The translations under genes were made by a program, and so were the position numbers. Of a stretch of DNA of 64,000 bases, positions 26,071 to 51,149 are shown one piece after another (position 1 is the first letter of the stretch; each line of letters opens with the position of its first letter). Location: contig FWCC01000174.1 of assembly GCA_900169235.1 (NCBI GenBank), forward strand, positions 345,977 to 409,976, written 5' to 3'. The DNA comes from Zarea fungicola. Taxonomy: Eukaryota > Ascomycota > Sordariomycetes > Hypocreales > Cordycipitaceae. Below the pieces are notes generated by a model. That model had not been told where the DNA came from and did not search any database. It worked only from the letters and a program-made list of their open reading frames with translations.

Positions 26071-26106
26071 TGCCCGCCGTCTGCCCGCCGCCCGCTGCCC
26101 GCCGCC
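26071..26106 (+). repeat. GC-rich imperfect tandem repeat, unit about TGCCCGCCG
   Basis: Three to four imperfect copies of a 9-11 bp unit. A second short CCG/GTC-rich run follows at about 26455-26477. Both lie upstream of the RING gene leader. Confidence 0.7.
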
Positions 26107-27697
26107 TCTTACTTGACAAAGCCTTGCCTAAACGATCCTGGGAGAGAGCGTATTATTCATTCCATGCCGCACGCACCCGCCGTGGTCGTAGTTCCACGTT
26201 AGTTGGAGCCCGGCCAGCAAAGTTGTTGTTAGCTAACATAGCTTTACGCACCTTTTAGCCCTTCTTTCCTGTCCTTCTCCGTCCTTCTCGCTCTCTCTTT
26301 CTTCACCGGGGCGGGACGGAGCAAGAAACAATTACTGCTGGCTGCCCGGCTCGACATCTGAGTGGAAAAGGAAAAACCTGCCTCACTTGCCACCAGCCGC
26401 CCGCCTTCTTTGATAAATACACATCTACCTACTTATTAGTCTGTCGTCGTCCAACGCCGCCGTCGCCGCCGCCGCCGTTTTTCTTGCCCGCCTGATCCAG
26501 CTTCCGAGCCCCTCCTTCCATCGGTTAGGTTGTCTGGGCCTCTTTTTTTTATTATTTCTGGTCCCCCAACTGGTTATTGCCTATTCCTTGTACCTTGTCG
26601 CAGGGTGGCCCTCTGTTGTATTTTACTAACATTTGTCCGTTTCCTTTTGCCGGCATTCCCTTGGCCCATGTTAGGCCTGGAACTGGCATGACTCTGTCAC
26701 TGGGCACGCCTTGATTTCCACACTTGCGTCTCGTCACAGTGCCGCACCCTACCTTTGCATCTTCCTTTTTTTTCCTCCTTCGGCAAGTCTCTTCATCTTC
26801 TCCCATACTCGTGAAGCTTTAAATCGTTCGGCCGTCACTGCCCCGTACTGCCCTCACTCCGTCTCGAGCCTGCTCTCAAGCCAGCCTGCGTACTCTTAGC
26901 AACCCGCCGCCCGCTTCCCCCGTGCTTCGGCCGGGCACTGGTTGTACTTGCCCGTGGCCCAACTTGGTTGCTCATTCCTCTGTCCGCCCGGGCGGTTGCT
27001 TCTTGTCGCCGCCCTCGGCCGCGGCCTGCCAGCTCCTCTTCGACGTTTACGACTCCAAAGCATTCTTCACAAAGCTCATCATCTTCTTCTCGTACCATCC
27101 AAGCTCCTCCTGGTCCTCATTCTTCTCGCTTGCCCCGCACGCCCGTGTGCCGCCGCCGACTCTCAGCCATCTTCTCCACGAGTACTATCCCAGGGAAAAA
27201 GCCACGAACCTGCAGCTATATTATTCCCAACTTTATTTGTATTGCTTTTTTTTTCAGCTATTATCCAGCAGCCAACTCTTTTCTGTTTTATCGGACCCTA
27301 TTACGTTTTAGACGTCCATCTCAGCCGGATTTATTCTTCAAAAAGCCCGCCTTGTATCTGTGAAGAATCGCCGGTCGTGCTCCTACACCAACCTTGACCG
27401 TCCTCTTACACTCGACCACCTCGAAGCTATTCCTATAAACGACCGCGTCGTCGGGGCATCCATACGACGGACCAAGTCCCACGTTTTCTTAAACAGCAGG
27501 TTTTTCTCGCACATTTCTATCTCAGTATTGTTCTGGAGCAAAATACAGCAATTACCAACCGACGTCGTCTCTGCCGGCCGCGCCACATTTAGTCTGTTTG
27601 CCGTCCTTCTGCGTCCACCAAAGTGAGGGAACTGCAATACATTACAGTATCTCGGAGAGGAAATCCTATCGATCTGTTGGCATTGTAATTATGAGTC

Positions 27698-29847
27698 ATG
27701 GACCCAATGGAGTTTATGTTCCATGACACCTCTGGGCCGCCAACCCACGCTAACAATATGCCGCCATCTTCAGCACCTTGGCTGGCTCCCTCACCAGCCT
27801 TCCTGCCACAGTGGTCCTACTCGGCACCCGCGTATCCCCATTACGACGCAAACAACACTGCGTATGCCTCTTCATATGCTCCACTGCCTTCTACTGCACA
27901 CTACATGTCCTCTGGTGTCTCCGGTGCTGCGCGTCAGCCTACAGGCCTAGGACCGAATGGCATGCCGACGAGCTCTTGGCCGCCCAGCTCCGTTCAGCAA
28001 CCTACTGTTAACAATTTGCCAGTCGGTCCATTTGGAACGATGGCCACTGCTAATGTTAATGCACAGAATATTCGCTTTGCTGCTGCCGGCAGAGCAAACA
28101 GGCCGTCAAGCACTCAGACACCTTCAGCGTTTGTGCAGACAGCTGGTACCACACACGTACACGCACTGCCTCGAGCCGTGAATCCACAGTCAAACGCTGC
28201 CTCACATGTACAGCTCAATCCTGAATCTTTGGCTTTTCTTCCTACTGCAGCTTCATCTCGCCCTTTGTCTACCATACAAGCGAATCAAGAAACACTGCGG
28301 GGTCACCAAACTCGCAATAGAGTCTCCCAGATCGCCCAACACGGGCACTCTTCCCCTGGTAAGTCACGGTATCTATATGTTTTCTGTTGTCCACCGAAGA
28401 AAAAGGTTAAATTTATCTTCATGTGGGACTGCTTGGATGCTGCCGTCGTAAATAAACTCTATTTTCATTTTGGCGAGCAGTCCAGCCACTGCGTCCTCGA
28501 TTTTTTAACACATCACATTTTCTGACGCCTAAATTCCTTCCAGCCCCGACCCAGAATATTGCCAGCGAAAGATTTAGTCAAATTTCTACATTTTCTGAGC
28601 GCCGACGTCTGGAGCATTTTAGAGGTCGAAGGCAGATTGGTGCCAGATTCACCGCCTCGGAGCCATACAGCGACGGCTCAAACCCTCGCCGGTCGGCAGC
28701 AGTATTTCACCCCGGCCACCGTCGTCAAGCGAGCATGAATCAAGCAGGTTCCATGGATGATGCTGAATCTAGAAGCATGCAGCTACTTCGCGGCTCAATC
28801 AACAGCAAGTCTGTAGCTTCCAAGGCAGCGCTACAAAGTCTACAGGCTGTCAAGTTGCAGGATTTGGCCGAAAGCGAGAGATGTAGGTCGACCTCGAAGA
28901 TTTGCAACGCCCTAATGCTAATTGTCAAAGCTTGCGTTATTTGCTACAATGAGTACGAAACGAGGTCCCCCGAGGGCATCTGCGAAATGCCGGTTCGGCT
29001 TCCCAAATGCAAACATGTATTCGGTAATCATTGCATTCGAAAGTGGTTTCAAGACTCGGACAGCTGCCCGTACTGCCGTGACAAACTGCACTCTGAGCCG
29101 AAACATTATCCATCATCGACCCGATCCTTTATGGACATGATGAGATTACGAGGCTGGGCTGTCGGTTCAGAGTAAGCCCTGCACCCTGTATTCGTTTTGC
29201 AAGATTACAGCTAATGACGCAATGCCACCAGGATGGCGGATGATTTTTATAGGAGAATTATGAATGGAGATGATGTGGAAACAATATTGAGTGCTTCTCG
29301 CAACACGTCGGAACGACGACCTCCACCTGATAGCGACAACGAAGAGCCACCACGCCGGATACGACAGCGCCGGTCTAGTTCATCGAGCACTGAGCAAGTC
29401 CCGTCGCCGCAAATGCGAAATGTGGCAGGCTTACACCGGGGTGCTCCAAGACGTGAAACGACACGCAGCTCACCTAACCAGACATCCCCTCCACATACGA
29501 TGGCTCTGACAAGCCCGTGGATCTTTACAGGTTCTGCTTCACCCCAGCCGCAAAGCAGCACGCACCATAATATGACCTCTATGTATCAGTCACCCACACA
29601 TGCTGTAACGAGCCCTGCTGTACAACAGTTTTCTTCAGTCATGCCGAACAACGTGCGAGGGCGGCGTTTCATGAATGCACGAGCTATGGCAGGTACCTCG
29701 AATGGAGAAGGTTCGAGCGCAGCTGTCATACCAAATCCTCTACTCAACAGCGCACAAGTATCCATCGGCCTTCAACGGGCAATGAATGACGCTACCGTAG
29801 AAGGCATCCTAGGAGAATCATACGAACCCGACCAGGTATCTCCCTAA
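27698..29847 (+). CDS. RING-H2 finger protein (probable E3 ubiquitin ligase)
   Basis: Three exons, 27698-28358, 28544-29171 and 29232-29847, join in frame to give 634 aa. Intron 1 is 185 bp (GTAAGT, CAG); intron 2 is 60 bp (GTAAGC, CTAATGAC branch, CAG). The N-terminal 220 residues are Pro/Ser/Thr/Tyr-rich and disordered. The central part has a basic helix (FSERRRLEHFRGRRQ). A C3H2C3 RING lies at about 351-398: C-x2-C, then KCKH, GNHCIRKWF and CPYC. The C-terminal third is Ser/Pro-rich. RING-H2 domains recruit E2 enzymes; the substrate is unknown. The start MDPMEFM is the first Met after the long leader. No orthologue name recognised. Confidence 0.85.
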
Positions 29848-31788
29848 GGTACAGTCTACAGGCCGCAGGGATACATGTGGAGCTACTCGCCAGCTTGAAC
29901 ACATCATGGACGGCCCCTTGGCACAGACACCGACCAAGGTCTTATGTTTTATACCATTTCTCGTACGTTTTTGGAGAGTTTTTCTTTCTTGCTTTTGGGG
30001 CTGCCAATTTGGTAGTCATTCAGCGCCATATATATTGGACATAATGGTGGCGTTGGCGTCTTCTACTGCCCCTTTTGGTGGATAGCCTGCATCTTTTGAT
30101 TTATTGTTATTGAGTTGGTTTTGGTGCATACTTCGTTTATAAAGACATATTTAGAACAAAGCGTAGCCTGAGGAAACAAGAGCGCATATTGGCAGCTGTC
30201 TTTTTGTGCCACTTTATATGACGGCAGTATTCCGTTTCTTAACCATTCAGAGCTGTTGTGAAAACAGAATAGTAACCGAAATGCCAGTACTATTTATCGG
30301 TGATTTTGACAAAGCAAAGCTGGGAGGGGGGATCACTCAATTTTTTTTTTCAACTCGAACTCGAGATTGCTCAATCGTTGTAGGCTCTGAATTGATTTCG
30401 GGAACAGGGTAGCAGCGCGTGCGCCACAACTAAAACTGTCTGTAGCAAATCACTAGGCGGAATGTGAGGGCTAATGTCGATGTAGAATAACGACGTGGAG
30501 GCGCTGAAAGACGAGTAGAATAAATACGTTTTAATCACTTTATCGTAATAGCACAAAAGTATAAACCTCCTTCCTCTTTTTCCAATGGTTCTGTTGGATC
30601 ACTCTTGCGAAAGGTGCTTGTCTGTGTTTATTTATTTTAGGTGTTTGTGAGTACCCAGCTCAGCAGGCTGTCGTTGACGAGGCAGCCAATACCAGGGACC
30701 CACTTTTGGCTGTGGCTTTAATGCGCACAGAAGTACGGAGTACTCTCTACAGGTACGGAGTCTGTGTGCAGAGTACAAGGTAAGCACATGTGCCACATCC
30801 AAGTTGCCGCTGAGTAGGCTGGAGCTGGAGCTCACTAGCGTAGTCTGTCATCTAGTGGTGCCACGACTGCTGTGGCGCCCAGCTCCAACGGTTCTAGCGT
30901 TGGTGCTGCTATAAACCAAGTGCTTGTGTTTGCAAAGCGACCAAGAAGTGAAGTCTTCGTCAGTTTGAGCTACACATCGCTGCCACGCCACATTTTAACA
31001 TGCAAGTTTTCCCTAGAGAGCATATGAAACTTTATTGAGAGGAAGCGGGACTTGAAGATTGGAAACTGCTAATAACCATGTGGCGGTCTATAAATGCTGC
31101 GGAATGACTGCAGACCCACTGCTCCATTCATTGTGCCCATTGTTAGAAGTAATTTCAGGTACCTGAGCAGTTAGGCTTTCCCAACTGTCAACTTAGCAGC
31201 ATTAGTAGATACCGAGGTAGGGATGAGCTTGTTACCGTCGCCGACGCCAAGTGCTCTGATACTTTTCCAAAGGACTCCGTGGACGAAATGGTAGCATAAA
31301 TCGCCTGCGTAGTAAATCCATCACTATTAAAGCAGCGTCGGCACCAAAATTACCTGCACCGCTCTAGTGTCCTCATCCCCAGCCACCACCTTTCAGCGGA
31401 CCGGCTCGGGTCGATGGGTCGTCCCCCACCACAGCTGTACCTCTGCCCAGTTTTCTAATACGTTAGTGCAGCAGGCAAGTTAGTACCTAATTAGAACCTG
31501 ATGCTGGCCGCTGTGCATCGATTTCAGCGGTCTTTTGGGTCCCATTGCCAGCCCTTGGCAGCTTATTATAGACAATTATAGGTAGCTTGTAAATCTGCTC
31601 TGTGCCGGGGCCTCTTGAAATCAAAACATTCAACTTCATTTTCCATCCGCAATTCCCCCCTCAAAAACCCGACCTCCTAAAGAACATACCCTAGTTTTTC
31701 TGCTGTCTTTCCCTATCCATTCCTTATTATACCCTCACCTGGAATAGAGAAAATCTTGATACAGCATACATACATACTTTTCCACAGC
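29848..31788. other. intergenic region
   Basis: 1.9 kb between the RING gene and the Leashin gene. Holds RING 3' sequence, a TACGGAGTA motif at 30734-30742 with a partial second copy at 30754, a small perfect-arm hairpin at 30885-30903 (CCAACG...CGTTGG), and the Leashin promoter and leader. The leader ends TTTTCCACAG just before the ATG, so a 5'-UTR intron ending there is possible. Confidence 0.55.
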
Positions 31789-34700
31789 ATGCCGCGAGAC
31801 TCTCGTCGCGAGAGTCGCGAGGACTCTGATAAGCGCAAACCTGACGACAACCGAGAGAGACACCGGGATCGCGAACGAGACCGTCGCCACCAAGACCGAG
31901 TAGGAGACGACACCGACAGACGAAGAGAGACCGATAACCGCCACAGATCCGTCGATTTCGCCACGATGCCTAACCCGACATCATTTACAAACATGCCGTC
32001 CATGGCACCTTCGTCCTCGCCTCCACGTCAACCCTCCAACACCGAAGGCAAAGGCAAGCAGAGGAGACGAGCTCCGTCCAGCTCCAGCTCCTCCAGCTCC
32101 ACCGCCTCGTCTCTTCTTGACATTTCTCGACATTATCCGCAGAATCGCTACGGTGGCTTTTTCGGTACTTTTTTCAAAGCGCCCTCAGAACGGATCCGTC
32201 GTGCTTCTGCCAGACACACTGCCGCCCGCCCGTCGAAGCGTCGCACATCCTTTTACTTTGGCGGGAACTCATCTTCATCCTCTGTAAATTCCGACCTCGC
32301 CTACGGAAATGGATACATTCCCAAGCAGCGTCATCGTCGCCGCAGCAGTGGCGGCAGTAGCAGCTTTCGAAATAGCCGTCCGACACGAACAAGAGACGGC
32401 GATGTGTTAAATACAGGCGCAGCTGGGCAGCAGCGCAGGCCTGATGGCCCGACTCGTGGCAAGACAGATGAAGAGATTTTGGAAATCGGCCGCCAGCTCT
32501 CTGAATTGGCGCGGAAGCAAAACAAGCATGATCTCAAGGCTGCTGGCTACGTCAAGCCCACGGCGCTGGCCGCCACCTCCGCTGCTCTCGGCAAATTTCG
32601 CAAAAGTCGCCAGGAGGCTCGCTCCCGTGGGGTCGGCAGCTCCAAGATGCATGGAGATGCCTCGTCAAGTGACGAATCCGACTGGGAAGATGCTTCGGAC
32701 GACGAAAGCGACGGCGCAGACTCGGTCCTGGCCTATGGATCTTCTGTCGCTGCCTCTGCCATGCACCAACGTCGACCAACCGTGTCTGGCAGCTCCGACC
32801 ACGGTGTCGGGCCATACGCGAGTGGTGCTCTCGTAGGTGGTGGCAGCGCGGCGGCGGCTGCGGCCTTGGCCGATCCCGACAGGAGAGGCTCCATTGTCGA
32901 CCCTCGACTCTTTGGACCCGTCAACTCCTTGCGCGGCATGATCAACACGCCCTGCGGCTTCGGCGAGGACCCGCGTGGGCCTTCGAACAACTATCAGCCT
33001 CCTCCCACCGATACCCGAAGATATGGTACTGCTGCCACGGATTCCGCGCCTGATAACCGCCCCATGCGGGAAGTGTACCCTGTGCCTACGTCTGATCCGA
33101 GGAGATTTGATGCCGATACTTCTTCAAGACAGGAGCTGCCCCGTCGCTCCCGCCCATCTACCGTGCCGCTCGAGCAACCCATCCCAAAGCTCCCCGTTTC
33201 GTCCAAGGTCTACGAGGCGGAGAGACTGGAGGACTCGACCCACCGCGAGTCGCGCCATAGCAAAGACCGCGACAGCCATGGTATTAGCAACGGTGCCGCT
33301 GCTAGCTTTGCAGCTGCCGCTATTGGGGCCGCTGGTGCGGCTGCTTTGGCATCTGACCGCAAAGACAAGAAGGAGAAGAGGTCAGAACGTGAACATGACC
33401 GCGAAAGAGAAAGGGAGCGAGAGCGAGAGCGAGAGCGTGACAGAGACCGCGAAAGAGAAAGGGAGCGTGACAGAGAACGTGAAAGAGAAAGGGAGCGAGA
33501 CAGGGAACGTGACAGGGACCGGGACCGACGTGACCGTGATACCAAACGCCGCGAGAGAGACTCTGAAAAGGATAAAGAGAGCAAAAAGTCGCAGCGTGAC
33601 TCATATTCTTCCTCAAAATATGACGATAAGGACCACAAACGCCACTCGAGGTATGATGAACCCGAGGACACCCCACGCAAGCGCCGCGAAACAGAGTCCG
33701 ACTACTATGCGGATCCTCCGTCATCCTCTCGCAAGGATCGCAGTAAACGGGATGTCACTTTCGACGACCACGGCGAATCTTCACGCTCTTCAAGGCGTGA
33801 GAGCAAATCTTTTAGCCGTGACGACCACAAGGATGATATGCGCAAATCCGTCGACAAGTACGCCGCAGGCTATGATCAGCCTAGTACGAGCATCAAGGGA
33901 AACCCCCTTCCCTACCAAGTGGCTGATGGGGCCTTTTCCGCCGCAGACTTGTCTGCTCCTCAAGTACCGCCCGGGCGTCCACTGACACCGAACATTGTCA
34001 CGGTCGACCGGGAGCCAAATTTTGACGACGACGATACTCCATATTTGCCACTGCATCCTTCTGAATCGAGATTGAGCCGGAAAGACTCCTTTGAGCTGGA
34101 GGAGAGGGCACACAGTTCTCAGGAATACAACCGAAGTCGCCATCGAGGCACTCACGACTATGAAGAAGGCGAGCACGAAGCTCGCAGCATCTATGACCAG
34201 GCCAAGCACGCTACTATTCCGGTCGCCGCGGCTGCTGTTGCTTCTGCCATTGCAGTGGAAGCGGAACGTTCCCGCGAGCGTCGCCGTGACCGCTATGATG
34301 AGGACGGCTCCCGAGACCGAGACTCCTGGAAGAGAGATGCCGTCCAAGAAGAAGCCGACAAGTACTACAGAGAATCCGTCATTGCCCGAAAGATTGAGGA
34401 AGAGCAGATGCGTAGCCAAACGCCAGAGAAATCAGTCGTCAGCAGGTGGGATGGGGACGATGCCAATGAGGATCAGAATGTCACAATCACGACTCCACCA
34501 GAGATGGTTGAGCAAGCCAAGACTCTTGGTCCTTATGACGCGCCAAATGCAGACGTTCGAATTGACAACCAGCTCTTCCCTATGGATACTATGAAGTTTG
34601 ACAAGAAGAGCGGCAAGCGCAAAGAGACTCCCAAGTCACGCGACCCGGACTGTGAACGAGACCGTCCGGTTCTGAACCTTGTTTTCCCTACTCCCGTTCC

Positions 34701-37700
34701 TAGTCGGGAGCCCACGCCCAATGTCGAGAAGCAGAAGACCAAGGACCAGACCGAGACGCGCCAGACGCAACCCGAAACTTCTGCCTCGGATGTTGTGATT
34801 GGACCCAAAGGCAACATTGTCAAAGCCGAGTCTGCCAAATCCGTTACTTGGGGTGAAAACTCTACCAAGAGTTTTGAGGTAGAGAGTGCCGAGTCCAAGA
34901 GCGATGCAGAGAGAGAGGTGGCTGTTGAGAAGGAGGATAAGCCTAGAGCTCGCCTCAGCAAGGCTAGCCAATGGGGTATCGTGGCTGCCGCGATTGCCGG
35001 CAGCAGCAAGGAGCCTTCAGGCGAACCCGACTCTACTTCTACGGCTTCCAAGCGCAAATCCGACAAAGACTACGACCCAAAGGAATCGGTCACTCGCGAT
35101 ATTGGCGCCACAGATACTCAGCAAATCTACAATGTCGAGATCCCTGACCATCCTCCTGTTCCTGGACCCAAGCCGACGAGCCCAACCAGAGACGACTTAC
35201 CCGGATCCTACGCAGATGATGTCGAATTTGCTGCAACTCTTGCTGCCGGGCTCAAGGATTCTGGCTTTGACTCTAACATTGTTGTCGATGACCCTACCTA
35301 CCGACGCCGTGATTCACCTCCAGGCACGAGAGAGGCAAATGGCGACGAATGGAACCACAAATCCATGTCTGATATAGTTATGGACATTGCTGGCAAGAAG
35401 GACACTACCCGTTCAGTGGTGTCTGAGCCCGCTGGTAATGGCAAGGTTGACGATGAGTGGGACATACCCAAGAAGCTGAGCAAGAAGGACAAAAAGAAGC
35501 TCGATAAGCTTAAGAGACAGTCTTTAGATCTCTCCGAAACCCCAGTCCCCACCGATACTACTACTCCTGAGGATCCAGAGTCTTCACCCCCCACATTTGA
35601 AGACGCCGTTGAAGACTTACCAAAGCTGTCCAAGAAGGAGCAGAAGCGACGAGAGAAACAGGCCATGGCCCTGGCCCTTCTTGAAGGGGAGAGTCGTGAC
35701 GATGCGCAGCGGGAGCCTGAGCCGACGATCGATCGCTCGCTGCCTGCTGAAGAGGCCATTGATGTGTTGGAAGAACCCTCCTCTGGCAAGAAAAAGAAGA
35801 AGAGTCGCAAGAGCCAAGACGCTAGCCCCGACGATATTGTCACTGTTCCCGCCGACGCTTTTGACGATCTGCAGTCTCTAAGAAAATCCGAGAAGGACGA
35901 CGTTGCCTCGGTCGATGACTGGGATACACCCTCAAAATCCAAGCGCAAGTCAAAGTCGGACCGTGATGATGTTCCGCGCTCTTTCACCGAGTCGGAGGTC
36001 TCGACGTCAAGCAAGAAGAGTAGCAAGTCTAAGCGACGTAGTGGTACTGAAGGGGACTTTGACGGCAATGGCAGCGACACGAGTAAGAAGAGCAGCAAGT
36101 CAAAACGTCACAGCATCGTTGAGGGCGATGACGGATACGGCAGTGACGCGAGCAAGAGGAGCAGCAAGTCGAAACGCCGCAGCGGCGCCGAAGCTGATTT
36201 TGATGAACACGGCAGCAGTGATAGCCCTACCCGCAGACGAAGCGTGTTTGACGACCGCGACGTCTCGTCTGTTGTCTCGGAAGCTCGCGGCGATAATCGT
36301 CGGCGTGAACGCGAAAAGGAAAAGGATCGAGATAGAGATCGGGATGGTCGCAGCAGCAGTAAGCGATCGTCACGCAACTACGATGACGATGACGACGCTC
36401 GCTCTGTGATGTCCGTCGCCTCAGCACCTGGTGGCACAAGAAAGAGCAAGGATTCGAGCAAGCGTTCTAGCGGCCTGTTTGCAAGCATATTTAAAAGCAA
36501 CAAGGAGGATGAGAAAAAAGACAAGGACAAGGGTTCTTTTTTAGATAATGCCGGCACCCTTGGCGCGGGTGTCGGCTTGGCGGGCGCTGCGGCTATTGTT
36601 GCTGCTGGCGTTTCACGTTCCAATGCCAATGACAACTCCTTCGAGGCCCATGAAGATGCCCCTCGGACCCTAGTCGACTCTTACGACTATGATACCTTTG
36701 ATCCCGAGATTGCTCCTCGTGCCATCAAACCGGCCATTGACCCTCAATATGGCGATCTTCTTCCCCTACCGCCAAGCGAGCCAGGCAGCCCACGATCTGA
36801 GCCGGAAAACTACCCCTCTTTGCCGGATAGTCGACCTGACACACCCCCTGAGGAGCATAGTATGAGGCGGGACCAGATGAACCACCGACGCCGACGAAGC
36901 ACCCAGGAGACGCCAGCAAAGTCACCAAGTAACACCGCCATCCCCATTTCACTTCGTCTTGGACGCCCTCCTGTCAGCCCCAGTACTACGTTTAAGTCTT
37001 CTCCGACCGGCTCTCCGGCACCAAGTTCTCATGGACAAGATTCCATGAGCAAAAGAGCCTTGCGCGGCACGTCTTGGGATAGTAGTAGAGAGATAAAGCC
37101 ACTCTACTTGCTCGAGCACTCGCGCCAGGGTTCCACCGACATGGCGATTAGCCAAGAAGACCTTCCCGAACTGCCGCCATCTCGCGAAGAATCTGTTTCT
37201 GAATTCCTCTTTGCGGATGAAAATGTTGCTGATGTCGACCTTGCCTCCGCCGGCCTCCATATTGATACCCATAATTTGCCACCGATCTCATCTTTTGACT
37301 ATCACACTGGTTCTCAGGAAACCACGCCCAAAGCGGAGATTCGGCCTCAGTTCCCCTCGACCGGCGACCATGTCTATGAGCAGGATAATCCCGATGCTGT
37401 GGATTCCATGTCCAAAGACCGCAGCTCCTATCTGCTCCACTCGACACCCTCATCCACCAAGACAGTCACTACGCTGGATGGCGAATCGTTGCAAGGTGAA
37501 AACAGCTCGACGCCCAGCAAGCAGCAGCTCAGATCCAGTGATGTCCTGCCCGAGATTGTCGAAGATTTGACGTCTGCGGATGAACGATTTGAAGATGCCC
37601 TGGATGTGCTATCGGTTGGCTCTCGCCGCTGGTCGGAGGACTCGACGGCTATGCAGGACGCTCGGGAACACCACATTGAGCCTCTCGTGAAAGAAGAAGC

Positions 37701-40700
37701 ATCGGAGCCGAAACTTGCTGAGACTGAGGAATCAGGGATAGACGAATGGTCTGGACTCAGCGCCAAGCAAAAAAAGAAACTCAAGAAGGCGAAGAAGAGT
37801 CAGTCGTTAGAGACGAGTGAGCCGGCCGTAGTTGACAATCCTCAGGGCGTAGCCGAGCCTACCCTTGCGGATACTGAAGTTGTTCCTGCTGAGACTGAAG
37901 GTGCTCGTGCCGCACCCGAGGCTACATCTCCTGATGCTGATGCTATATCTACCGAGACTGAAGTTATCACTGCCGAGACTGAACTCATTCCGGCCGAGAC
38001 TGAAGCCACTCTTGTGGTTGAGGAGCCTTCTACTGTATCTAATGCCCCACCCATTACGGAGGACCTCGAGAAGATACCCACTCAGGGCGACGCGCTGGAC
38101 TTGCCAATCAAGTCAAAGAAGAGCAAAAAGAACAAGAAGAAGTCGCAATCTTGGGAAGATGATGGTGTTGATGCTGCCCCAGTTGTCGCAGGTGCTGCTG
38201 CACTTGCTACTGCTACTGCCGCCATTGCAGCTGATGCGTCAATTGATAAGAAATCTCAAGAAGACAACCCCGACATCGTGCTCTCACCCGTCGCTGATGC
38301 CAATGATGTCGCTGATACCAAGGATGTCGCTGAGACCAAGGACGTCTCTGCTCAGATAGAGCCTGCTCCTGTTGAAGAAGTTGAGCCCGTGGAGTTGCCT
38401 ACGAAAAAGTCCAAGAAGAAAAATAAGAAGAAGGGACTCCAGCCCGAATCTGAGGCTGAAACCAAGCCGCTGCCTGTTTTGGAGCCTGCTGCTGATCTGA
38501 CCTCCACTACACAGGACAGCCCAACTCCAGCTGAAGAGCCTAGAACTGATATTGCTTTGTCTGGAGAAGGAGAGGCAGCTCCCGCTGAAGAACCCGCGGC
38601 CGCCAATACTTCAGTTGAGCCTGTTTCTGAACTGCAGCCTGAGGAGCCTGAAAAGAAGGACACAGATGAAGGGTCGACGACGCCTGCCACTTCGAAGAAG
38701 GACAAGAAGAAGAAGAAGAAGAAATCCCTTCTACCTGACGAAGCTATTCTTGAGCCAGAGCTCCAGGCTGAACAAGCGGTGGAGATTGCTCCGGAGCAAA
38801 CCCCAACCGAGCAAGAACAGAAAGTTCCGGCAGAAAAATCAGGAGACGCGCCTGATGCAGTTCTTCCAGAGCCACAACCCGAAAAGGCTGAGGATATTAT
38901 TCCGGATGGCACAACAACTTCTAAGAAAGACAAGAAGAAGAAGAAGAAGAAGTCTCTTCTGCTTGACGAAGTTGCAGCTGAGCCAGAGTCCTTGGTAGAG
39001 ACCACTCAAGAGCCAGCTACAGCCGAGCAGGATAATGAAATACCTGTAAGGGAATCAGAGGCTAATCCTGTTGCGGATGTTGAAAGCACATCCCAGGCAC
39101 AACCTGATGTTCTCTTGGAGGGTGTGGCAGCCAACCCCGCTGAAGAAGATGAGAAGAAGAAAAAAGAATCTCATCTTGGCAATGCCGCGGGACCTGAGCA
39201 TCCTGATCCCCTTGTTGAGGATCAAACTGTCGTGGGGACTGATACCGAGAAAGCTCCCCTTCTCGCTGAGAAAGAATTGCCAGTGGAGGAATCTCCTGAA
39301 CAGCCAGTCGTTCCTGCAGAGCCACAACCGGTAGAAGCTGCCCGCAGCACTGGAGACGATGATGCTGTAGGGGCGAAGGACAAGAAGGAAAAGAAAAAGG
39401 ACAAGCGTAAATCCGTGCAGTGGGAGCCTGAACCTGAGGTGATTACTATGGCATCCGACACGCAACCACCTTCAACAAGCCCTGAACAGCCCGAGTCTGA
39501 TGATTCTCAGAAACCTGCTGTCGTTGCATCGCTCGAGAGTCAAACCACTGAGCTAATTTCTACGCAAGACACTGTATTCGACGACGGCCAACGAGATCTC
39601 ACTAGTGCCGATACTACTCAGACAGGTAGCCAGCCTGTAGCGAATGATTCTTGGGATGAGCCTTGGGACGAGCCTACTGCCTCAAAGGGAAAAGACGGCA
39701 AAAACCAGAATGTCTGGGACTTGATTGAAAACTCAGCCCAAGACGATAAAGAGACTGGTTTCCCTAAGGATCTCGATCTTGGCGATGCCGCTGCTCCTGC
39801 CGCTTCCAAGAACGAAAAAGCAGATGCAGAATCTGAGGACGAATGGAGCAGACTGATTTCAGGCAACATCCACGAGAAGCAGTCCCAAGGCGATGTCCTC
39901 GTTGCTACCCACTTAACGGAGGAGCCCGAGGCAATTACAGACACTCCAGAGAAGTCAATAGAAGTGGATGGACTCGAAAAAGAGAAGGAAGTGCTTCCCC
40001 TTGCCGGACCTCTCGCAAGCGAGGCACCAATAGCAACTGGAAAGAAAGGTAAGAAGGGTAAGAAAGGCAAAAAATCGACTTCTTTCTCCTTGGACGAACA
40101 TGATTCGCAGCCAGGAACTACAGTTGCTTCAGAGATCCCGGCCGAACCTGCTGCTGAACCTACTGTTGATCCCGTTGATGAGGCTGCTGCTGAGCCTGGT
40201 GCTGAGCCTGTCGCTGAGCCTGTCGCTGAGCCTGCCACCAGTCCTGCCGTCGAGGCTGAGGCCATCTCTCCAGCTGTTAATGTCGCTGAGGGTGATCTTC
40301 CCCGTGCTTTGAGTGAGAGCAAATCTGGCGAAGCTACTCCAGAATTAATTGTTACGGATACCCCTGCTGAGGCTACTGCTGACAACGATTCCTTCTCCAC
40401 GACCAATATGTCCAAGAAAGAGAGGAAGAAAAAGAAGAAGAAGCAGGCAGCTTTGGAGGAAACTCTTGCCGAGCCGCTTGAGGCAGCTCTCACAAATGAA
40501 CAAGAGACTGAAATCGAGGCACCTGGAACACCAGCGAACAATAATGCAAATGTCGCCGAAGATCCGACTTTGCACCAAACTGATGTATCCGAACCGACAG
40601 TAGAGCCTGCTCCCGAGCCCGAAAAAACCTCTCCTGAGCAGAACGAGGCTAACGCGGATGGTGACTGGGCCGGTGTCGTGACAAAGTCTTCTAAAAAGGA

Positions 40701-43700
40701 TAAGAAAAAAAAAAAGAAGCAGGCTTCAATGGATGAATCTAAGATTGAAACACCTCAAACTGGCGAACCCGAACCCACGCTACAGGATGAGTTTGGTTTC
40801 AAAGCCGTTGAACCTGTAGCTGGCCCTGCTTTGGAAGAGAAGCCAGTTGACGAGGGGAAGCCAGTTGACGAGGGGAAGCCAGTTGACGAGGGGAAGCCAG
40901 TTGACGAGGGGAAGCCAGTGGAGGAGAAGCCAGTGGAGGAGAAGCCAGTGGAGGAAGAGACGGTTGTTGCGAAGGAGAAAACTGTTGTGGAGGAGACCAT
41001 TGTTGAGCAAGACCCAGCTGCTGAGACGAAACCAGATGATGAAGTGGAGGTGTTATCTGCAAAGCTTTCCAAGAAGGATAAGAAGAAGAAAAAGAAGCAG
41101 GCAGCTTTGGAAGCAGCTGGAGCGTCAGCAACTACAAAGCCTCCCGACTCCCCGCCGCAAGAAGAAACTGAGACTCTTGATCCTGTGGTGCTGGCAAATC
41201 CACAGATCGACTACGCAGCGCAGCAGCATGGGGCAATGGACGATGACTTGGCCCGAGACAAGAAAAAAGAGAGTACTTCTGCGCATGTCCATGCTCCTGT
41301 AGAAGACAAGCCCCCCGCCACAGATGAGGCAAAACCACCAGCCGAGGAGGCTCCTCAGGAGGTTTCTGTCCCTCAGCCTTTAGTCAACAATGCGACCATT
41401 CAGCCTGAAATTGTCGAAAAAGGAGCTGTGCCGTCCGTTGAACTTGTTCCGAAGATGACGGCCGAGGCACCCACTGATTCGCAACCTGCTCCAAATGCTG
41501 ATCCAAATGCTGAAAGCGAGTTGGGAAGCGCCACCGTGAAGCTTTCGAAAAAGGACAAGAAGAAAAAGAAGAAGTCCATGAGCGAAGCTCTTCAGGTGGA
41601 AGAGCCTGAGGTCAAACAGCCCGTGGTTGAATCTGTCGCTGAGCAGCCTCTGGAGCCAATCGCGGTACCTGCAGCGGTTGAACAGGGCCAAGCTGTTTCC
41701 GAGTCCCCTGCCGAGAAAGCCATGGAAAATATCCCCGAGAGCGAAGAGATGGACACCTTTACTGTAAAATCTTCCAAAAAAGACAAGAAGAAGAAAAAGA
41801 AGTCCATGAGCGAGGCTGCCGCGGCGGAAGAGCCTGCAGCAGAAGAATTGGCGGCTGCATTTCCTACCGAACAATCTGTCAGTGATCAGACTCCGAGCGA
41901 CCAGACTTCTGTAGAACAGCTCGGCATTTCCTCGGCGGCTGAAGAATCCAAGCCCATTCTCGAGCCCTCACTGGAGACGCCTGTTCAGGACAACGCAGAC
42001 AAGGACTTACTGGACAGCTCTACTACCAAATCCTCGAAAAAAGATAAGAAAAAGAAGAAGAAGTCTATGAGCGAACCTACTCTACTTCTTGAAGATACGC
42101 CTGCTGAGTCTCTAGTCGAGCAGCCCACGGTAATAGTGGAAGCTGCTAGCATAGAAGCTGCTAGCATAGAAGCGACAGACAGTGCTGTCGAACCGGTGGA
42201 ATCAATTGGTCTGCCCGACGCCAACAAATCCTCTGCTGATTCGCTAGTCAAACAGGCAGTTAAGGAGCCCGAACCCGAGGATGACTCAAGTGGTTTCGCT
42301 AAGAAGTCTTCCAAGAAAGACAAGAAGAAGAAGTCTGAAAGTGAAACCGCGATGCCTCAGAAGGATACGCCTGCCTTGCTTTCAGTTGAGCAACTTGTTG
42401 AAACCTCCGAGCCTGCGAAAGACAAGACCGACCAGTCTGCTTCTGAGCCAGTAGGGGAACCGCTGTCCAAAGAAGCGGTACCTGAGGATCTATCCAGTGG
42501 TCTCTCAACGAAAATGTCAAAGAAAGACAAGAAAAAGAAAAAGAAAACCACTAGCGAAATCTTCTCGACACCCCCTGAAACTGCCATCGAGCCCCTGGAT
42601 GAGTACCCTGCCGAAGTAGTTGCTGAACCCGTCGGGGTCGTTAGCTCCACCGAAACACAATCTGAGCTCGCGATGGAGTCTGTCACCAAATCTGCTATCG
42701 AGTCTTCTGCTGAGCCTGTTCCAACTCCTGAACCTGCATCTGATGCGGCTGAGGCCCAAGTTGACGGGAGTAACGTTGCTGTGAAGTCTTCTAAAAAAGA
42801 TAAGAAAGCTAAAAAGAAGTCCATCAGTGACGCTATGGAATCGGCCTTGGAGGCTCCTAAACAGCCAATAGACGAGGTACCTTCTCAAGCCGCAGATTCT
42901 GTAGCGGTTCAGACGCAGCAAGCTGCTCCAGATACCTCTGAAGAGCCGCTCGTTGAAGAAGCCAAGGCGGAGGACGAGTGGAGTAGCTCTACAACAAAGC
43001 TTTCCAAAAAAGAAAAGAAAAAGAAGCAGAAATCCACGAATGAAGCAGTTGATTCAGCCCTCGAGACAACCACTGAGGCAACAGATGAGCTGCCTACCGA
43101 AACGTCGGCTGAAACAGCTGCAATTGTCGACAATGTCGAGACCTTGGGAGAGGCACCGGATTCTACCGAGAGCCAAGAAATTAGGACAGCCCAGCCAGAG
43201 GATGAACCGGTTGGGGGCTTATCCAAGAAAGACAAGAAGAGGCTCAAGAAGAAGGCCCTCGGCGCTGCTACTATCGGAGCTGCTGTTGCTGCTACTGAAA
43301 TCTCGAGCACACTGAGAGATGACAGCCGGGAAGCTACAGCCGAGCCGGCACCAGCGCATGACGTTCAGGAAACGGAACCAGAGTTTGCTGCCGCTGCGGA
43401 TTCAGCTCAGCTCGGGGAGGATGACCAAGTAACAAAGCCGATGTCGAAAAAAGAAAGAAAAGCGGCCAAGAAACTCGGTCTCCTAACGCCTGACGATGGT
43501 GAAGCTGTACAACCACAAGCTCCGGTGGGTACCACTGCTAAAGATGCTGATGCAGAAACATCCCTTATTGAGTCAAAAGCCGAACCAGCAAGCCTCTCAT
43601 GGGCCGATGAGATGGACAACACTGATTTGCACACGTCGACAGAGGATACACCAGCAGAGGAACAAGCCAAGGCCCCCGAAGACGCCGGCTTTGATGGCCC

Positions 43701-46700
43701 GATCTCAAAGAAGAAATCCAAGAAAGACAAGAAGCGCAAATCTGGCTTAGATTTCACTCCGCCTCCAGAATCAGTTGTTGATGCTGGCAAAGTAGAAACT
43801 GCAGATCCCCCTGTCCCTGCCGCTGAATCCGTTAGTACAGATGCTCTAGTGGAGGCTCCAATTGTGCAAGGAGCGGCCGACAAAGAACCGCAGGATGATG
43901 ACTGGGCTATTCCAGTGAAGAAAGGAAAGAAGGGCAAGAAGAGCAAGCGGCAAAGCACTGTAGACTTGGACCCAGAGCTTGACTCTGCAAATCAACCAAC
44001 CGAGATTGCCACAGAAGTTCTGATTCAACCTGAAGCTGCTTCTCAGGAGGATGCAGATGCAGAGCAACCCCAACCCGTGGCTGCTCCAGGCTCTACTCCC
44101 GAAGCAGGTCCAGCGGAGACTGAAGTTGACGACATACTAGCCATTGCCTCTAATAAGAAGGACAAGAACAGCAAAAAAGACAATTTCATCTCTTCAGCTG
44201 AGGCCGAGACTTTTGCAGAAAACTCCACTCCTGAGCCTGTTGAGGAAACACTTCCAGTGTCCGCAACTGGAGCAGATGCTGCAGCCCCAGTTGAAGCAGC
44301 GGATGATGAATTTGCCCTGCCTACGAAGAAGAAGGGCAAGAAGGGCAAGAAAGGTAAATCTTTATCACCAGCCGACTTGGAGGAAACAGAGAGCAAAGCC
44401 GTTCCCGAGTCTTCAACAGACAGCGGCGTGGCAGCTACAGAGATCAAGCCGGAACCAGCAGCAGACGAAGAACAGACGATACCAGTTAAGAAAGGGAAGG
44501 GAAAGAAGGCCAAGAAGATGTCACTTTCAGCCTGGGAAGACTCAACTGGGGAACCATTAACTACTGAATCACCGATGGAGGTTCAGGAGACCACGCCAGC
44601 TGAGCTTGCAATTTCTGATACTCCTGCGCTTGTGGAAGAGCCTATGGCCATGTCCGACACCGAAGTACGACGTGAGGATACCTGGTCTGTACCGACCAAA
44701 AAGAAATCCAAAAAGGACAAGAAGGCCAAGTCAACCCAGGAAAGTGCACCCGAAATCAATGCTACTACGAAGCCGGAGAAGGATATTTGGGACAACGACG
44801 AATTTTTCACGACAAAAAACTCTGAACGAGATGATGCGATTACGACTGGTGACGAGAAGCAAGAGCGGCGTTTTGATGAAGCGGTTAGTGTTGGTGAAGT
44901 CGTGAGAGACGTTTTACCCGAAGTTGAAATGACAAGGTCTGTTGACGATAAGCCCAGCAGCTCTGATAAGATTATACCGACGCCAGAACGCTCCAACTCG
45001 ACTGGTAGTGGCAAACAAAAACCAAGCCGCGACTCAATGGAGGCAGCGGGGGCGGCAGTAGCACTTACCGGCGGTGTAGCGGCACTGGCTCAAATGTACG
45101 GAGGTAAAAAGAAGAAGGGGAAGAAGTCGAAGATTGTGGACAAGAGAACACCGCAAGAGGATGACATGTTTGATGATCCTGCAGTGTGGGAAGGGCCGGA
45201 CAGGAAGAGCATTATAGATGAGCCGGGGAACGAGAGGGTAGAGGATGAGGAAGTGGACGACTTTTGGGGCCCAGGCCGACCGGAACCTGGCCCCAGTGTA
45301 GCACCGCGGACACCTGCCAGCGGCAGCTTCACCGAGTCTGGAGATGAGTGGAAGGAAACTGCGAGGCAAGGGGTGCCTGTAAATGACGAGTTTACCGAGA
45401 GTCCCATTTTGGGACATGGAGAATCTTTACTCCCCTCAATAGGTGATGGGCTGCTCCGACGTGACTCCAAGCTGGAGGAGCCAGCTGGAGGCTTATTCGA
45501 AGAAGTACCTCGCGATGATTCGACAAGACCATTTTATTCCGAAGCAAGTGAACTACGATCTTCAACACCTACACGAGGACTGCCTGCGGTTCAAGAGCTG
45601 CCAGAGGCTGAAATTGAGGAGGCGGCGGGAGGCTTCTGGCCCGCTGAGGGTGCTAATCGTGACAGTGGATTCATTCCAGACTCGCCTCAGCGGCGCCGAA
45701 GCCCCAAGTTTATGGACGAGAAACAACGAGATAGTGGTGTGGATAGCGGGGACTGGCGAGAGACAACGCACTTGCAGACACCAGAGATGGGCACCCGGGG
45801 TGTCGAACGACGGACAGGGCCATCACCTTTGAATACGCCAGTGCTGCATGAGCGAGCTCGAGACGACATCACAACGCCAGTTGCTGATCCTGAGAAGCGA
45901 TTACGTCGCTCCAAAAAAGACTACGGGGAGGTTGCGGCAGTGGCAGCTGGTGCATCTGCGCTTACTGCTGGAGCACGTCAAGACAAGGGCAAGGGACAAG
46001 ATACTGACAGGCGAGCAGTCTCAGATTCCCAGGCTGTCGTCACTGGAACCGGACCGACGTTGGGATCGGGACATGCAGAGGGCAGGGCGGCCCGAAGATC
46101 CGTTTCCAATACTAGTTTGTCCCGCCAACGGACGCCTGAGCCATTAAAATTGCGGCCTGATAATCCAGGCAGCATATCAGGTATCCGGTCTTCAGCCACA
46201 CCTACGCCACCATTGCGGCGGGTCGACAAGCGCATGAGCGGAGACCTTAGAGCTCTTCGTCAACAAAACAACTCTACACCAGTTGCCAATGAGGCTCGTG
46301 TCCGTACAAAGGACATGGCCGATGTATATGTGAGTATCTCTTGATACGCATGACTCCTTCCTTTTCCATATGCAAGATGGGGCGTCTCGATAGTTTCGCT
46401 CTTTTTGTGTCGGTACTTTCGTCTTGTCTATCGCATGGTCGAGTCCCCAGCCACCCAAATAGGCATCACCACCCCAACTTGCGACGGCAATGTTTTACCG
46501 CAGGTACTGACATTTCAATCATAGGATGGATACGGCGAAGGTCGCCTCGGCTCGCCGCGGTCGCCGACAAGACCACATAGCATGCGCCGCCGCCAGAGCA
46601 TGCAAGTTCTCGAACTCGAGTCTCGAGTAGAACAGCTCCTCGCAGAGAACCGCCTGCTGACAGATGCCCGAAACCATGCCGAACAAAACCTCAACCGAAG

Positions 46701-47979
46701 CGCCACATCTGTTTTGTCTGAGCGCGATGCCGAGATCGATAAGCTGAAACAGTCTCTGCAGTTTCTACAGAATGAAGTCAACCGCCTAGCCGAGGTCAAT
46801 GATGGCCTAACAAGCGCCAATGCCGAGCTTGCAAACAAAGACACTAGCCACTATGCTGGCAGCCGTGGCCTCAACGGACCAGATGGCACGCCGTTACAAA
46901 CGTTGGAAGAGAAAGATGCCGAGATTGCCAGTCTGCGCGAGCAGCTTGAAGCTACCAAAGAACAAGTGCGTGAGATGCAACGTCAGATTCTCGCTTCCAA
47001 GGCCAGCGATGCCGAATTCCTTAACATCAGGGACGAAGACTACTTCGATAACCGCTGTCAGCAGCTCTGCTCCCACGTGCAGCAATGGGTTTTACGCTTC
47101 TCCAAGTTTTCTGATATGCGCGCCTGTCGTCTGACAAGTGAGATTAATGATGAAAAGACCATTGACCGCCTCGATAATGCCGTCCTAGACGGCTCCGATG
47201 TCGACATTTATCTCAATGACAGAGTGAGGCGACGAGACATTTTCATGTCCATGACCATGAGTATGATTTGGGAGTTTGTCTTTACCCGATACCTATTCGG
47301 CATGGACCGCGAGCAACGCCAAAAGCTCAAGTCTCTTGAGAAGCTGCTGACCGATGTCGGCCCCCAGAATGCTGTGCGCCAATGGCGTGCTGTGACTCTG
47401 ACGCTTCTTGCTAAACGGAGTAGCTTCCAAGAGCAGCGCGAACTTGACACTGAGGCTGTTGTTCAGGCAATCTTCCAGACTCTTTGCAAGATTTTGCCGC
47501 CACCCAGCAATCTGGAGATCCAAATCCAGTCACAACTGCGTCGCGTTATGAGAGAGGCCGTCGACCTATCCATCGAGATGCGTACGCAACGTGCAGAATA
47601 TATGATGCTGCCACCTCTGCAGCCCGAATATGATGCAGACGGCGAGCTCGCAGCTACAGTTCAATTCAATTCGTCCATGATGAATGAGCGTACACCGCAA
47701 AGCAGCATGACTAATGAGGAGATCGAGGCAGAAAACTCCATTGTCCGTGTTGTCCTTTTCCCTCTTGTTGTCAAGAAGGGTGATGATTTAGGCGTCGGCG
47801 ACGACGAGATTGTTGTGTGCCCCGCGCAGGTGCTTATTGCCCGTGAACACAATAGGCGACACATTACACCTTCAAGCGAAGTTGGCGGTGCATCTCTCGG
47901 TGCTCCAAGTCGCCTCAGTGTGGTGACCGATGCCATGGTCGGCCAACCAGATGCCCACTACTACGAGGGCGGCATTTAG
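31789..47979 (+). CDS. lah: Leashin, giant Woronin-body tethering protein (often labelled 'involucrin repeat protein')
   Basis: Tethers Woronin bodies to the cortex or septal pore, so wounded hyphae can be plugged. Exon 1 is 31789-46329 and exon 2 is 46525-47979, joined in phase 0 (DVY to DGYGEGR) across a 195 bp intron: about 5331 aa, close to the 5.7 kb-codon A. oryzae protein. Residues 1-500 are Arg/Ser-rich. An RE/RD-rich tract lies at 534-590. From about 1229 to 4450 come some thirty lysine modules of type SKKDKKKKKK separated by acidic Ala/Pro/Glu/Val-rich spacers. The last exon has a coiled coil (about 4870-5010) and the highly conserved globular end (LCSHVQQWVLRFSKF, RVRRRDIFMSM, FTRYLFGMDR). 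MPRDSRRESRE at 31789 is preferred over the Met at 31756. Neurospora splits this locus into lah-1 and lah-2; here both conserved ends are in one frame-continuous gene. Confidence 0.9.
33397..33534 (+). repeat. coding imperfect 30-bp tandem repeat (Arg/Glu/Asp)
   Basis: Units start at 33397, 33445, 33475 and 33505. The core reads GACCGCGAAAGAGAAAGGGA, and the first unit is lengthened by extra GAGCGA hexamers. Encodes the DRERERERE tract of Leashin (about residues 537-582), a highly charged single-helix-like or disordered stretch. Confidence 0.85.
36010..36225 (+). repeat. coding tandem repeat, about 72-bp unit, three copies
   Basis: Units start at 36010, 36082 and 36151 (72, 69 and about 75 bp). 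Each encodes S-K-K/R-SSKSKRRS/HS followed by an acidic Gly/Asp stretch ending GSD. In Leashin at about residues 1408-1479. Confidence 0.8.
40837..40955 (+). repeat. coding minisatellite: 18-bp then 15-bp units
   Basis: About four near-identical copies of an 18-bp unit encoding KPVDEG are followed by three copies of a 15-bp unit encoding KPVEE. All units are multiples of three, so copy-number change keeps the frame. The near-identity at DNA level points to recent expansion. Confidence 0.9.
46330..46524 (+). other. intron joining the two Leashin exons
   Basis: GTGAGT donor and ATAG acceptor, 195 bp, phase 0. Unspliced, the protein would end five codons later and lose the conserved 484-residue C-terminus. 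Exon 2 has no stop between 46525 and 47976. Confidence 0.85.
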
Positions 47980-48685: not shown

Positions 48686-50779
48686 CTATTGTATCTCATT
48701 GTCCTTATGAAAACGATTGAATGATCCCGTTGATGATGAGACTTGACCGTGACCATCAAATTCGTCCACCACCTCTCGCAACTGCGAAAACTCGAAAGGC
48801 GTTTGTTTGATTTTGGGTTCTTGGCGGCTCAAAGGCCCGCCTGTCGATGCCGCTGGCCTCGACGTGCTTTGTTCAACCAGATGACGCCAGCCATCAACTT
48901 CCTTCTTCATCTTGCGCGCTTCCTGGGGGCTGCAATTGTCGTGGACCAATCTTACCGCCCACTTCAGTAGCCTGTCGCGGCCCCACAAGCCCTCTTCGAG
49001 GTCCAACGTCACGGCGGTAATGGCGTTTCGAATAACGATTGGTGAAACAGTCCCCAATTGTGCTTTCTGATAGGCTGCCGCTCGTTGGATGCGTCGCATT
49101 TTCTGGCTCTTGCTAAGCTCAGGACTGCCGACATACAAGCAGCTCAGTAAGTCTATGAGCTCCATCTTCACCTCTCGGTTACCGCCCCGGGCTTTTATCG
49201 CGCGCCAAAGATACGACTCGGCTTTGGGATATGCCATGAACATGTCAAAATGCTGCTCCCAGGTGGCCGAACGCCAAGGGCCGAGTAATTTGTCGCCCTG
49301 GCTAGCTTCGCCTATGGCCATATGAAGCGCTAGAAAAACGTCTAGCTTGGCGGAAGAATCGGCAATCACTCGGAGGAGTTCCGGGCGGGGAGTTTCCGCG
49401 TGGGCCGTGATGAGACCCTCAATCAAATGCCAGGTCTCCCCAATATCAGCAAGGCAAGCAGAAAGTGAGGCAATCGCACGCTGCGGCTGTTCCGCCGAAA
49501 CGAGTGTATCGGCCAAGGCCGTCCATCTTGACGAGAGAGAGTCATTGAATTTGCGCCAAGCAACATCTCTGTAAACCTCTTTTGATAGGTATCCATTGCT
49601 GCGCAAACGGGCAACCGCAAGTTGCCATATTCGATAACCACTAGAGTCCATCTGGCATCTGGAGTGATTCTTATATATGGTGGTGAAAACTGTGTCGGAC
49701 ATGCAGGCATCGTAGGCCTGCGTTAGGAGCCATGCGAACGACACCTTCGTTCTCGTTTCTGCATCAAACCGAGAGTTTTGCAAATATTTATTTACGCTCG
49801 CAGATAATGCGAGTCGTTGACCGGCGTTCAAATGGCTGATCGCAGTACCAACCTTGGCACAACACCAAGCCCACTCTGGATTGAGGTTGTCGATTCGTGC
49901 TTGGGCGTTGATGAAACTTCTTGTATAGTTGAAAATTTTCTTGTTTGAGAGTTTTGCCCTGGCAGATTGTGGCATAACAGCGACTAACTTCTGGAAACAA
50001 GTTACGTCGTGAAAGCGACCATTTATAGTGGTGACAAACTCAAACATTGCTATCCAGGTCTCATCTGCTATAACCCCAGGAATGCTCAGCTCAGTCGCCT
50101 CTAAAGCATCGGCAACGGATGATCGAATCATTGCATGTAGTTTGTTGCCAATCTGCATGTTGGTAATAGCCTGGCAGGAAGCATCGTCGAACGGTTTCAA
50201 AGCCTTCAACATGTCTTCGAGAGAAACTCGGCCAGCCAGTATCCCGTCCTGGACAGTAGTGCAAAAGGACTGGCAGATTTCTTTCGCAGACTCAGCATCT
50301 GTGGCAGAAAGTGAAGCGATGCTGATCCGCAGGTCATTTATTGTCGTTGAAACGCTTGGATAGTCGTTCACGTTTGATGGTGGTATAATGTATGGCTTGT
50401 CGGCATCTGACTTTTCTAGCCACGCAAGGAGTTTGCCCCATAGACTCGGTATCGTCAGCTGAAAAGACCTTGCTCGGCGCTCATCTATAGTCGTAGGTCC
50501 TTGCCATTGCCAGGTTGTCGCGTTGGACAGAATCTCGAAATGCCAGGATGGTACAGGACGTGGCGCGGGATACATCGCACCAGTTAAATTGCGTTTTCCA
50601 AGTCGACGTCTGCTCTCTAATGGGCCTCTATGCGACATGAGATGCCGATATTGATTCACGGTGCGCCGCGGAAAGCGCTCAATCGCGGTGCCAAACGTGA
50701 TACTGGTTATCAACGTCCGGCGGCGGCCCGGAGCCTGATAGACCGCACGCCGGCACGGCGCATGGCATTGTGCGACCAT
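48686..50779 (-). CDS. unrecognised 697 aa protein, probably mitochondrial, alpha-helical
   Basis: Intronless. The first 65 residues are rich in Arg, with one acidic residue before position 45 (MVAQCHAPCRRAVYQAPGRR..., RRTVNQYRHLMSHRG), as in a mitochondrial presequence. The rest is alpha-helical with loosely repeating 30-40 residue helical pairs (for example SYRIWQLAVARLRSNGYLS and QPQRAIASLSACLADIGETW), resembling TPR/PPR-like solenoids, but no motif is strong enough to assign. The C-terminal 60 residues are disordered. It looks like a full gene: long frame, plausible start, normal composition. It is divergent from the EF-1 beta gene, 370 bp apart. A role in mitochondrial gene expression would be a guess. 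Confidence 0.75.
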   Translation of the reverse strand: MVAQCHAPCRRAVYQAPGRRRTLITSITFGTAIERFPRRTVNQYRHLMSHRGPLESRRRLGKRNLTGAMYPAPRPVPSWHFEILSNATTWQWQGPTTIDERRARSFQLTIPSLWGKLLAWLEKSDADKPYIIPPSNVNDYPSVSTTINDLRISIASLSATDAESAKEICQSFCTTVQDGILAGRVSLEDMLKALKPFDDASCQAITNMQIGNKLHAMIRSSVADALEATELSIPGVIADETWIAMFEFVTTINGRFHDVTCFQKLVAVMPQSARAKLSNKKIFNYTRSFINAQARIDNLNPEWAWCCAKVGTAISHLNAGQRLALSASVNKYLQNSRFDAETRTKVSFAWLLTQAYDACMSDTVFTTIYKNHSRCQMDSSGYRIWQLAVARLRSNGYLSKEVYRDVAWRKFNDSLSSRWTALADTLVSAEQPQRAIASLSACLADIGETWHLIEGLITAHAETPRPELLRVIADSSAKLDVFLALHMAIGEASQGDKLLGPWRSATWEQHFDMFMAYPKAESYLWRAIKARGGNREVKMELIDLLSCLYVGSPELSKSQKMRRIQRAAAYQKAQLGTVSPIVIRNAITAVTLDLEEGLWGRDRLLKWAVRLVHDNCSPQEARKMKKEVDGWRHLVEQSTSRPAASTGGPLSRQEPKIKQTPFEFSQLREVVDEFDGHGQVSSSTGSFNRFHKDNEIQ

Positions 50780-51149
50780 GTGGTATCGTTTCCGTCCAAT
50801 TTTAGTCCATTGGCATTTGTAATAGATTCGCAGCGATCAATTTGTCGTTGCAGAGGAGGTGTCCAACATTGTCGTCTCGAAGCTTCATCAGAGAACGGCC
50901 CGTGCTAAGCTTGAACTCGTAGTGGGCCAGGCTTCGGCGCCATGGCACGGGCCGATATTTATCCAGACCAACCCAAATAGCTGCACCCTGCACGCTCCAC
51001 GTTGAGCCACAAGTGGCCCCTCGCAGTAAATTGGTAAAAAAAATCCTCAACCCCACCTACTACATCGACCAGACAACCACCCCCTCCTATTTCTTCTCCT
51101 TCAACACTCTCGACAATTTTCGCTTCATCTTCTTCTCTTCACAGTCAAA
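50780..51149. promoter_or_regulatory. divergent promoter region of the 697 aa gene and EF-1 beta
   Basis: 370 bp serve both genes. The EF-1 beta side ends in a C/T-rich leader (about 51045-51145, with ACCCCACCTAC and CACCCCCTCC), the usual look of strongly expressed translation-factor promoters in fungi. No TATA box is evident. Confidence 0.55.

Follow-up and report, generated by a model that had tools for sequence, protein, structure and literature searches.

The leashin locus and its gene model

On the forward strand of the window, i.e. the whole stretch of 64,000 nucleotides that was analyzed, an open frame extends from 31681 to 46344, with its first ATG at 31789. It gives rise to the following gene model:

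31789..46329, + strand: exon 1 of the leashin gene, 14,541 nt or 4,847 codons (remainder 0), phase 0 at its 3' end
46330..46524, + strand: last intron, 195 nt, phase 0, GT..AG, donor GTGAGT at 46330
46525..47979, + strand: exon 2, 484 codons and a stop, coding a coiled coil, then a globular domain, then a low-confidence tail

The predicted joined protein counts 5,331 residues (580 kDa, pI 4.9). Since exon 1 holds 0 in-frame stops, where 50 base shuffles gave a mean of 204 and a minimum of 154, its open frame is not due to chance. The other frames contain 90 and 398 stops (forward) and 106, 79 and 174 stops (reverse), and the GC content by codon position follows a coding-like pattern, uneven from block to block. 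The intron carries three in-frame stops, one of them at the fifth codon, as well as a branch-like CTGAC at 46506-46510 and an ATAG acceptor. At the splice joint the predicted protein reads DMADVY followed by DGYGEGR, and protein P0003 of Cordyceps militaris continues across this joint uninterrupted (DMADVYDGFGEGR). The joint pattern was present in 38 of the 82 proteins of a first homology search and in 27 of the 117 new ones of a third (both described below), counts that are lower bounds as the pattern is strict.

The first-pass annotation had described a 14.5 kb stop-free exon joined in phase to a 484-codon last exon, and the coordinates, the frame and the phase-0 intron all hold. That both conserved ends lie in one continuous gene is likewise supported, by the lack of stops, the phase-0 joint and its uninterrupted counterpart in P0003. 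At the level of sequence, the leashin is present as one open gene model with its two conserved ends in one frame, separated by a long linker of low complexity.

Several neighboring features were observed in the window. The + strand encodes subunit 2 of the anaphase-promoting complex, with cullin and APC2 domains (18515-21331), a sulfate permease with a STAS and a C-terminal cyclic-nucleotide-binding domain (56365-58710) and an STK19-family protein (59797-61041). An open frame of 716 codons on the - strand (48689-50836) faces the leashin gene from downstream and has only a sub-threshold TPR match in Pfam. The region 26001-28000 displays a strong strand asymmetry (GC skew -0.263, AT skew -0.244) and overlaps a 276-aa open frame without Pfam match.

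Identity of the gene and its fused state

A first search, using residues 100-480 as the query, yielded 82 proteins at E <= 0.001, the best matches being those of C. militaris (71% identity) and Beauveria bassiana (66-70%). The proteins of these relatives are 5,129 aa and 5,123 aa long, respectively, and the N-terminal matches are often annotated as 'involucrin repeat protein' or hypothetical protein. The C-terminal domain was also present in 48 of the 82, including proteins of Cordyceps, Beauveria, Metarhizium and Fusarium, and absent in 34, some of which are visibly partial models. The last exon alone matched 972 proteins at E <= 0.001 among 7,996 candidates scored, and the identity to A. nidulans P0312 (ANIA_10735) amounted to 52%. 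In its own genome (a 43.1-Mb assembly of 456 contigs) exon 2 produced one match, so that the C-terminal end is single copy. We also came across P0085, a protein of 459 aa from a 23-kb contig, which is identical to exon 2 from the second ATG-like start onward and resembles an intron-less gene-finder call.

The hallmarks of leashin can be recognized in the predicted protein. Both ends are conserved and the middle is poorly conserved, which is how Ng et al. describe the protein (PMC2690989). The middle is acidic and repeat-bearing, with a net charge of -256 for exon 1, nearly all linker blocks negative, and tandem repeats. In addition, the gene co-occurs with HEX, the core of the Woronin body, which is encoded at G000:C299:72385-72861 with 80% identity to Neurospora HEX-1. 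On the same contig, around 35 kb from HEX (L010), there is an Mpv17/PMP22-family match (L007, G000:C299:37426-37596). WSC belongs to this family (PMC7318627); none was identified as WSC among the 7 Mpv17-type matches in the genome.

The leashin name was assigned on basis of the C-terminal exon matches, the architecture and published A. fumigatus details, and the identification made in the first-pass annotation is supported by the conserved ends, the divergent middle, the C-terminal matches and the co-occurring HEX. Judged from these sequence data, the gene is very probably a leashin of the Lah type, single and fused, and its host is close to Cordyceps and Beauveria. According to excerpts of Ng et al. 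(2009), leashin homologues were present in every Pezizomycotina genome sequenced by then, and a single gene was proposed as ancestral (PMC2690989). One fused gene is the ordinary, expected state in Cordycipitaceae, because this arrangement has been published as the ancestral one and close relatives are annotated with it. The gene itself is thus not news but one more fused leashin, and the side results on the linker module and the topology of the anchor matter more.

The leashin of Neurospora is split; its locus contains a promoter for lah-2, and a product of 450 kDa is described (excerpts of PMC2690989). Two transcription units could exist here as well, if a promoter within the exon drove a C-terminal product resembling LAH-2, serving hyphal tip and septum, alongside the full-length RNA or in its place. 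This would fit the many in-frame ATG codons in the 3' part of exon 1, and both of the Sordariaceae proteins encountered (4,475 and 4,342 aa) comprise just the C-terminal part. Nevertheless, we consider it improbable, as exon 1 shows neither an internal stop nor a missing piece nor a block that looks intergenic, and close relatives are annotated as one protein. Moreover, the end of Neurospora lah-1 depends on one additional intron and a novel stop (excerpts of PMC2690989), and no such structure showed up here in the in-frame stop count and the block-wise alignment. Less probable still is that retention of the last intron yields a second product of the same gene, a free Woronin body binder like LAH-1 that is devoid of the pore anchor. 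The stop at the fifth intron codon would permit such a product, and 7 of the 82 public models run on into this intron and stop there, but most introns would give a stop if retained and the 7 models look like missed introns.

Split and fused models in other fungi

A third search was performed with a C-terminal query and a length window of about 1,460-4,650 aa, which favors partial models. Of the 145 proteins that passed E 0.001, the best 120 were listed, 117 of which were new and three already contained in the first search. A recognizable N-terminal region was found in 4 of these 117 C-terminal proteins and was absent in 113, as judged with an N-terminal profile that was built from the first-search proteins and may miss distant N-termini. 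The one-ended models (34/82 and 113/117) count against the fused reading; we take many of them to be partial models, but some species could be truly split. A tally of split versus fused genes from the public models was rejected, many of these models being partial.

Some individual cases can be specified. Separate N- and C-terminal proteins are annotated in Purpureocillium takamizusanense (P0021 and P0207, with the consecutive tags JDV02_007070 and JDV02_007071), Hirsutella rhossiliensis (P0020 and P0211) and Thelonectria olida (P0056 and P0208), and these represent either annotation splits or further true splits. In P. lavendulum and H. minnesotensis the leashin is annotated as one protein. 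The model P0318 of Elsinoe ampelina (3,017 aa) has the leashin C-terminal domain at residues 6-512 together with unrelated Pfam domains, and is probably a fused gene model. Finally, Lah has been called 'elusive' in Metarhizium robertsii (excerpts of Tang et al.), yet both conserved ends were present in the entries of M. brunneum, M. acridum, M. album and M. anisopliae (P0007, P0008, P0010 and P0011) and in close relatives; M. robertsii itself was absent among the names listed in the first search.

Conservation along the protein and the lysine modules of the linker

The part encoded by exon 1 can be subdivided as follows:

31789..37788, + strand: conserved N-terminal zone, about residues 1-2000, 57-82% identity to C. 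militaris per 200-residue block
37639..44988, + strand: fast-evolving linker, about residues 1951-4400, with 23 of the 26 lysine clusters
40837..40960, + strand: PEVK-like tandem array, an 18-nt unit coding PVDEGK-type repeats

In 200-residue blocks, the identity to C. militaris drops to 32-51% over residues 2001-4400, with a coverage down to 0.51, and amounts to 71-73% over residues 4401-4800 and 85-93% beyond 4800. Although identity and coverage are lower in the linker, no intergenic-like stretch stands out between the two ends in the alignment to Cordyceps and Beauveria.

Lysine clusters, defined as at least 6 K in 12 residues, occur 26 times in exon 1 (0.5 in shuffles), with a median spacing of 96 residues. 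In 10 of the 26 a Trp or Phe is located 8 to 3 residues ahead of the cluster, compared to a control mean of 1.5 and a maximum of 6 in 500 draws. The same count exceeded every control draw in each of eight other protein groups, including Phaeoacremonium (24 of 28, control maximum 9), two Leotiomycetes (58 of 64, maximum 16), four Dothideomycetes (30 of 85, maximum 12) and a group of nine others (33 of 93, maximum 18) made up of proteins that were poor in clusters or had not been used elsewhere. Since tandem duplication copies clusters, those of one protein do not count as independent in this test. The pattern of Trp/Phe and lysine cluster recurs in four classes. Most groups also show an acidic patch ahead of the cluster, strongest around positions -10 to -6, and Ser/Thr was found at 18 of the 26 clusters here, a count without control.

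To describe the distribution we used 45 rows, this exon included, which were chosen for having a name. Clusters were frequent in Metarhizium, Purpureocillium, Lomentospora, Parascedosporium and most rows of Leotiomycetes, Dothideomycetes and Eurotiomycetes. They were few in two Trichoderma proteins (4 each), Ophiocordyceps (3) and the powdery mildew proteins P0252 and P0286 (2), and none were found in Ceratocystis, the Elsinoe models and two Sordariaceae C-terminal proteins. Partial models of Rhypophila (Sordariales, outside Sordariaceae) had 5 and 1. An unpicked count over all 150 proteins of at least 2,500 aa from two long-protein searches gave a median of 2.9 clusters per 1,000 residues, with 31 proteins below 1 and 4 with none. 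A strict coupling between the loss of lysine clusters and the split of leashin was rejected, considering that Ceratocystis and Elsinoe also have 0, several others are low and Rhypophila keeps some.

In print, the primary sequence of the middle is said to lack conservation; this has to be qualified, as a short motif within it is conserved. No account of the lysine module was found in the passages of the leashin literature that were surveyed; it may already be described in the study of the middle region in A. oryzae by Han et al. (2014). As to its role, electrostatic compaction or membrane contact is a guess. Trichoderma and some others keep a fused gene with few clusters, which argues against the module being involved in septal tethering itself. 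With the module, the elastic tether has a conserved unit that can be counted, and whose removal can be put to the test.

The C-terminal domain and the topology of the anchor

Within exon 2 two features are of importance:

46987..47844, + strand: C-terminal globular domain, predicted septal pore anchor, exon 2 residues 155-440
47239..47295, + strand: helical segment IFMSMTMSMIWEFVFTRYL, the equivalent of the published transmembrane segment, exon 2 residues 239-257

AlphaFold2 modeled the whole of exon 2 with a pLDDT of 72.9 and a pTM of 0.57 (block means of 83-97 for residues 171-360), and residues 155-440 alone as one domain with a pLDDT of 90.4 and a pTM of 0.89. PDB matches to the C-terminal domain did not rise above background. 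The segment published as transmembrane in A. fumigatus corresponds to a helix within the predicted domain, at residues 233-253 of exon 2, and is presumably buried there.

Several observations challenge the one-pass topology that was published for A. fumigatus, in which the C-terminal domain crosses the membrane once and its tail lies outside the cell. The best 19-residue hydropathy of the segment is 1.04 here, which is below the highest window of exon 2. Two charged residues of the supposed membrane segment are nearly invariant: of 56 sequences, 55 have Glu250 and one has Asp there, and all 56 have Arg255. The predicted fold packs both flanks of the segment into the one domain, and a membrane crossing would cut this domain in two. 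On the other hand, relatives reach a somewhat higher hydropathy in this segment (up to 1.48), and excerpts of the A. fumigatus study (PMC5345055) report that deletion of the segment or a VV-to-EE change abolishes targeting and that a piece made of the segment and short flanks localizes around the nucleus and sediments with the pellet. The mutants would disturb a soluble fold as well. The same study found that a 288-aa piece with 49 residues ahead of the segment was still targeted, which counts against a docking domain because the first helix of the domain would be missing. Taken together, we regard the one-pass anchor as the less favored possibility, though one that keeps a substantial share of the probability. 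The membrane topology currently accepted for the pore anchor is thereby called into question.

Tethering mode and a tentative model

In excerpts of Ng et al. (PMC2690989) the split is linked to the cortical tethering seen in Neurospora and Sordaria, most other Pezizomycotina tether at the septal pore, and a LAH-1/2 fusion reproduces the ancestral pattern with partial function. Because the split is tied to the cortical pattern and septal tethering to most other Pezizomycotina, tethering of Woronin bodies at the septal pore is, by analogy, a fair inference and the best one for this species.

By extension from the relatives that have been studied, the N-terminal zone would hold the Woronin body (in Neurospora through WSC), the C-terminal domain would dock at the rim of the septal pore, and the disordered, charged linker would be the leash that joins both ends. 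To this scheme we add that the linker may be punctuated by repeated acidic/aromatic/lysine modules and that the C-terminal domain may fold as a unit and dock on a receptor rather than anchor itself by a single pass through the membrane. Drawn into one figure, the leash would be an array of conserved short modules (acidic patch, Trp/Phe, lysine cluster and often Ser/Thr), these would act as charge-switchable stickers that fold the leash back or pin it to a membrane, module loss would have accompanied the split in Sordariaceae, and the pore anchor would be a soluble domain, perhaps of an unsolved fold, docking on a receptor. We put this joint reading forward as speculative, and consider it rather unlikely as a whole.

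Comparison with known systems

The closest counterparts are Lah of Aspergillus and most Pezizomycotina and P0003 of C. militaris, which have the same ends in one protein, the joint at the last intron, a charged and divergent middle and a coiled coil before the C-terminal domain; the differences are at the sequence level only. With 5,331 aa the predicted protein is shorter than the 5,936-7,480 aa given for homologues outside Neurospora (excerpts of PMC2690989) and similar to the proteins of Cordyceps and Beauveria. Neurospora has two genes, LAH-1 and LAH-2, whereas there is one here. The sequence comparison covered the LAH-2-like Sordariaceae proteins P0257 and P0260, which share the C-terminal domain type (57% identity) and are without recognizable N-terminal region and without lysine cluster. 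Titin PEVK is likewise rich in P, E, V and K and presumably a disordered spring, a likeness to which the PVDEGK tandem array contributes and for which no homology is claimed. To our knowledge, the description of titin PEVK lacks an aromatic-plus-lysine module. The comparison between leashin and titin PEVK as such is already in print (excerpts of PMC2690989 and PMC5745230).
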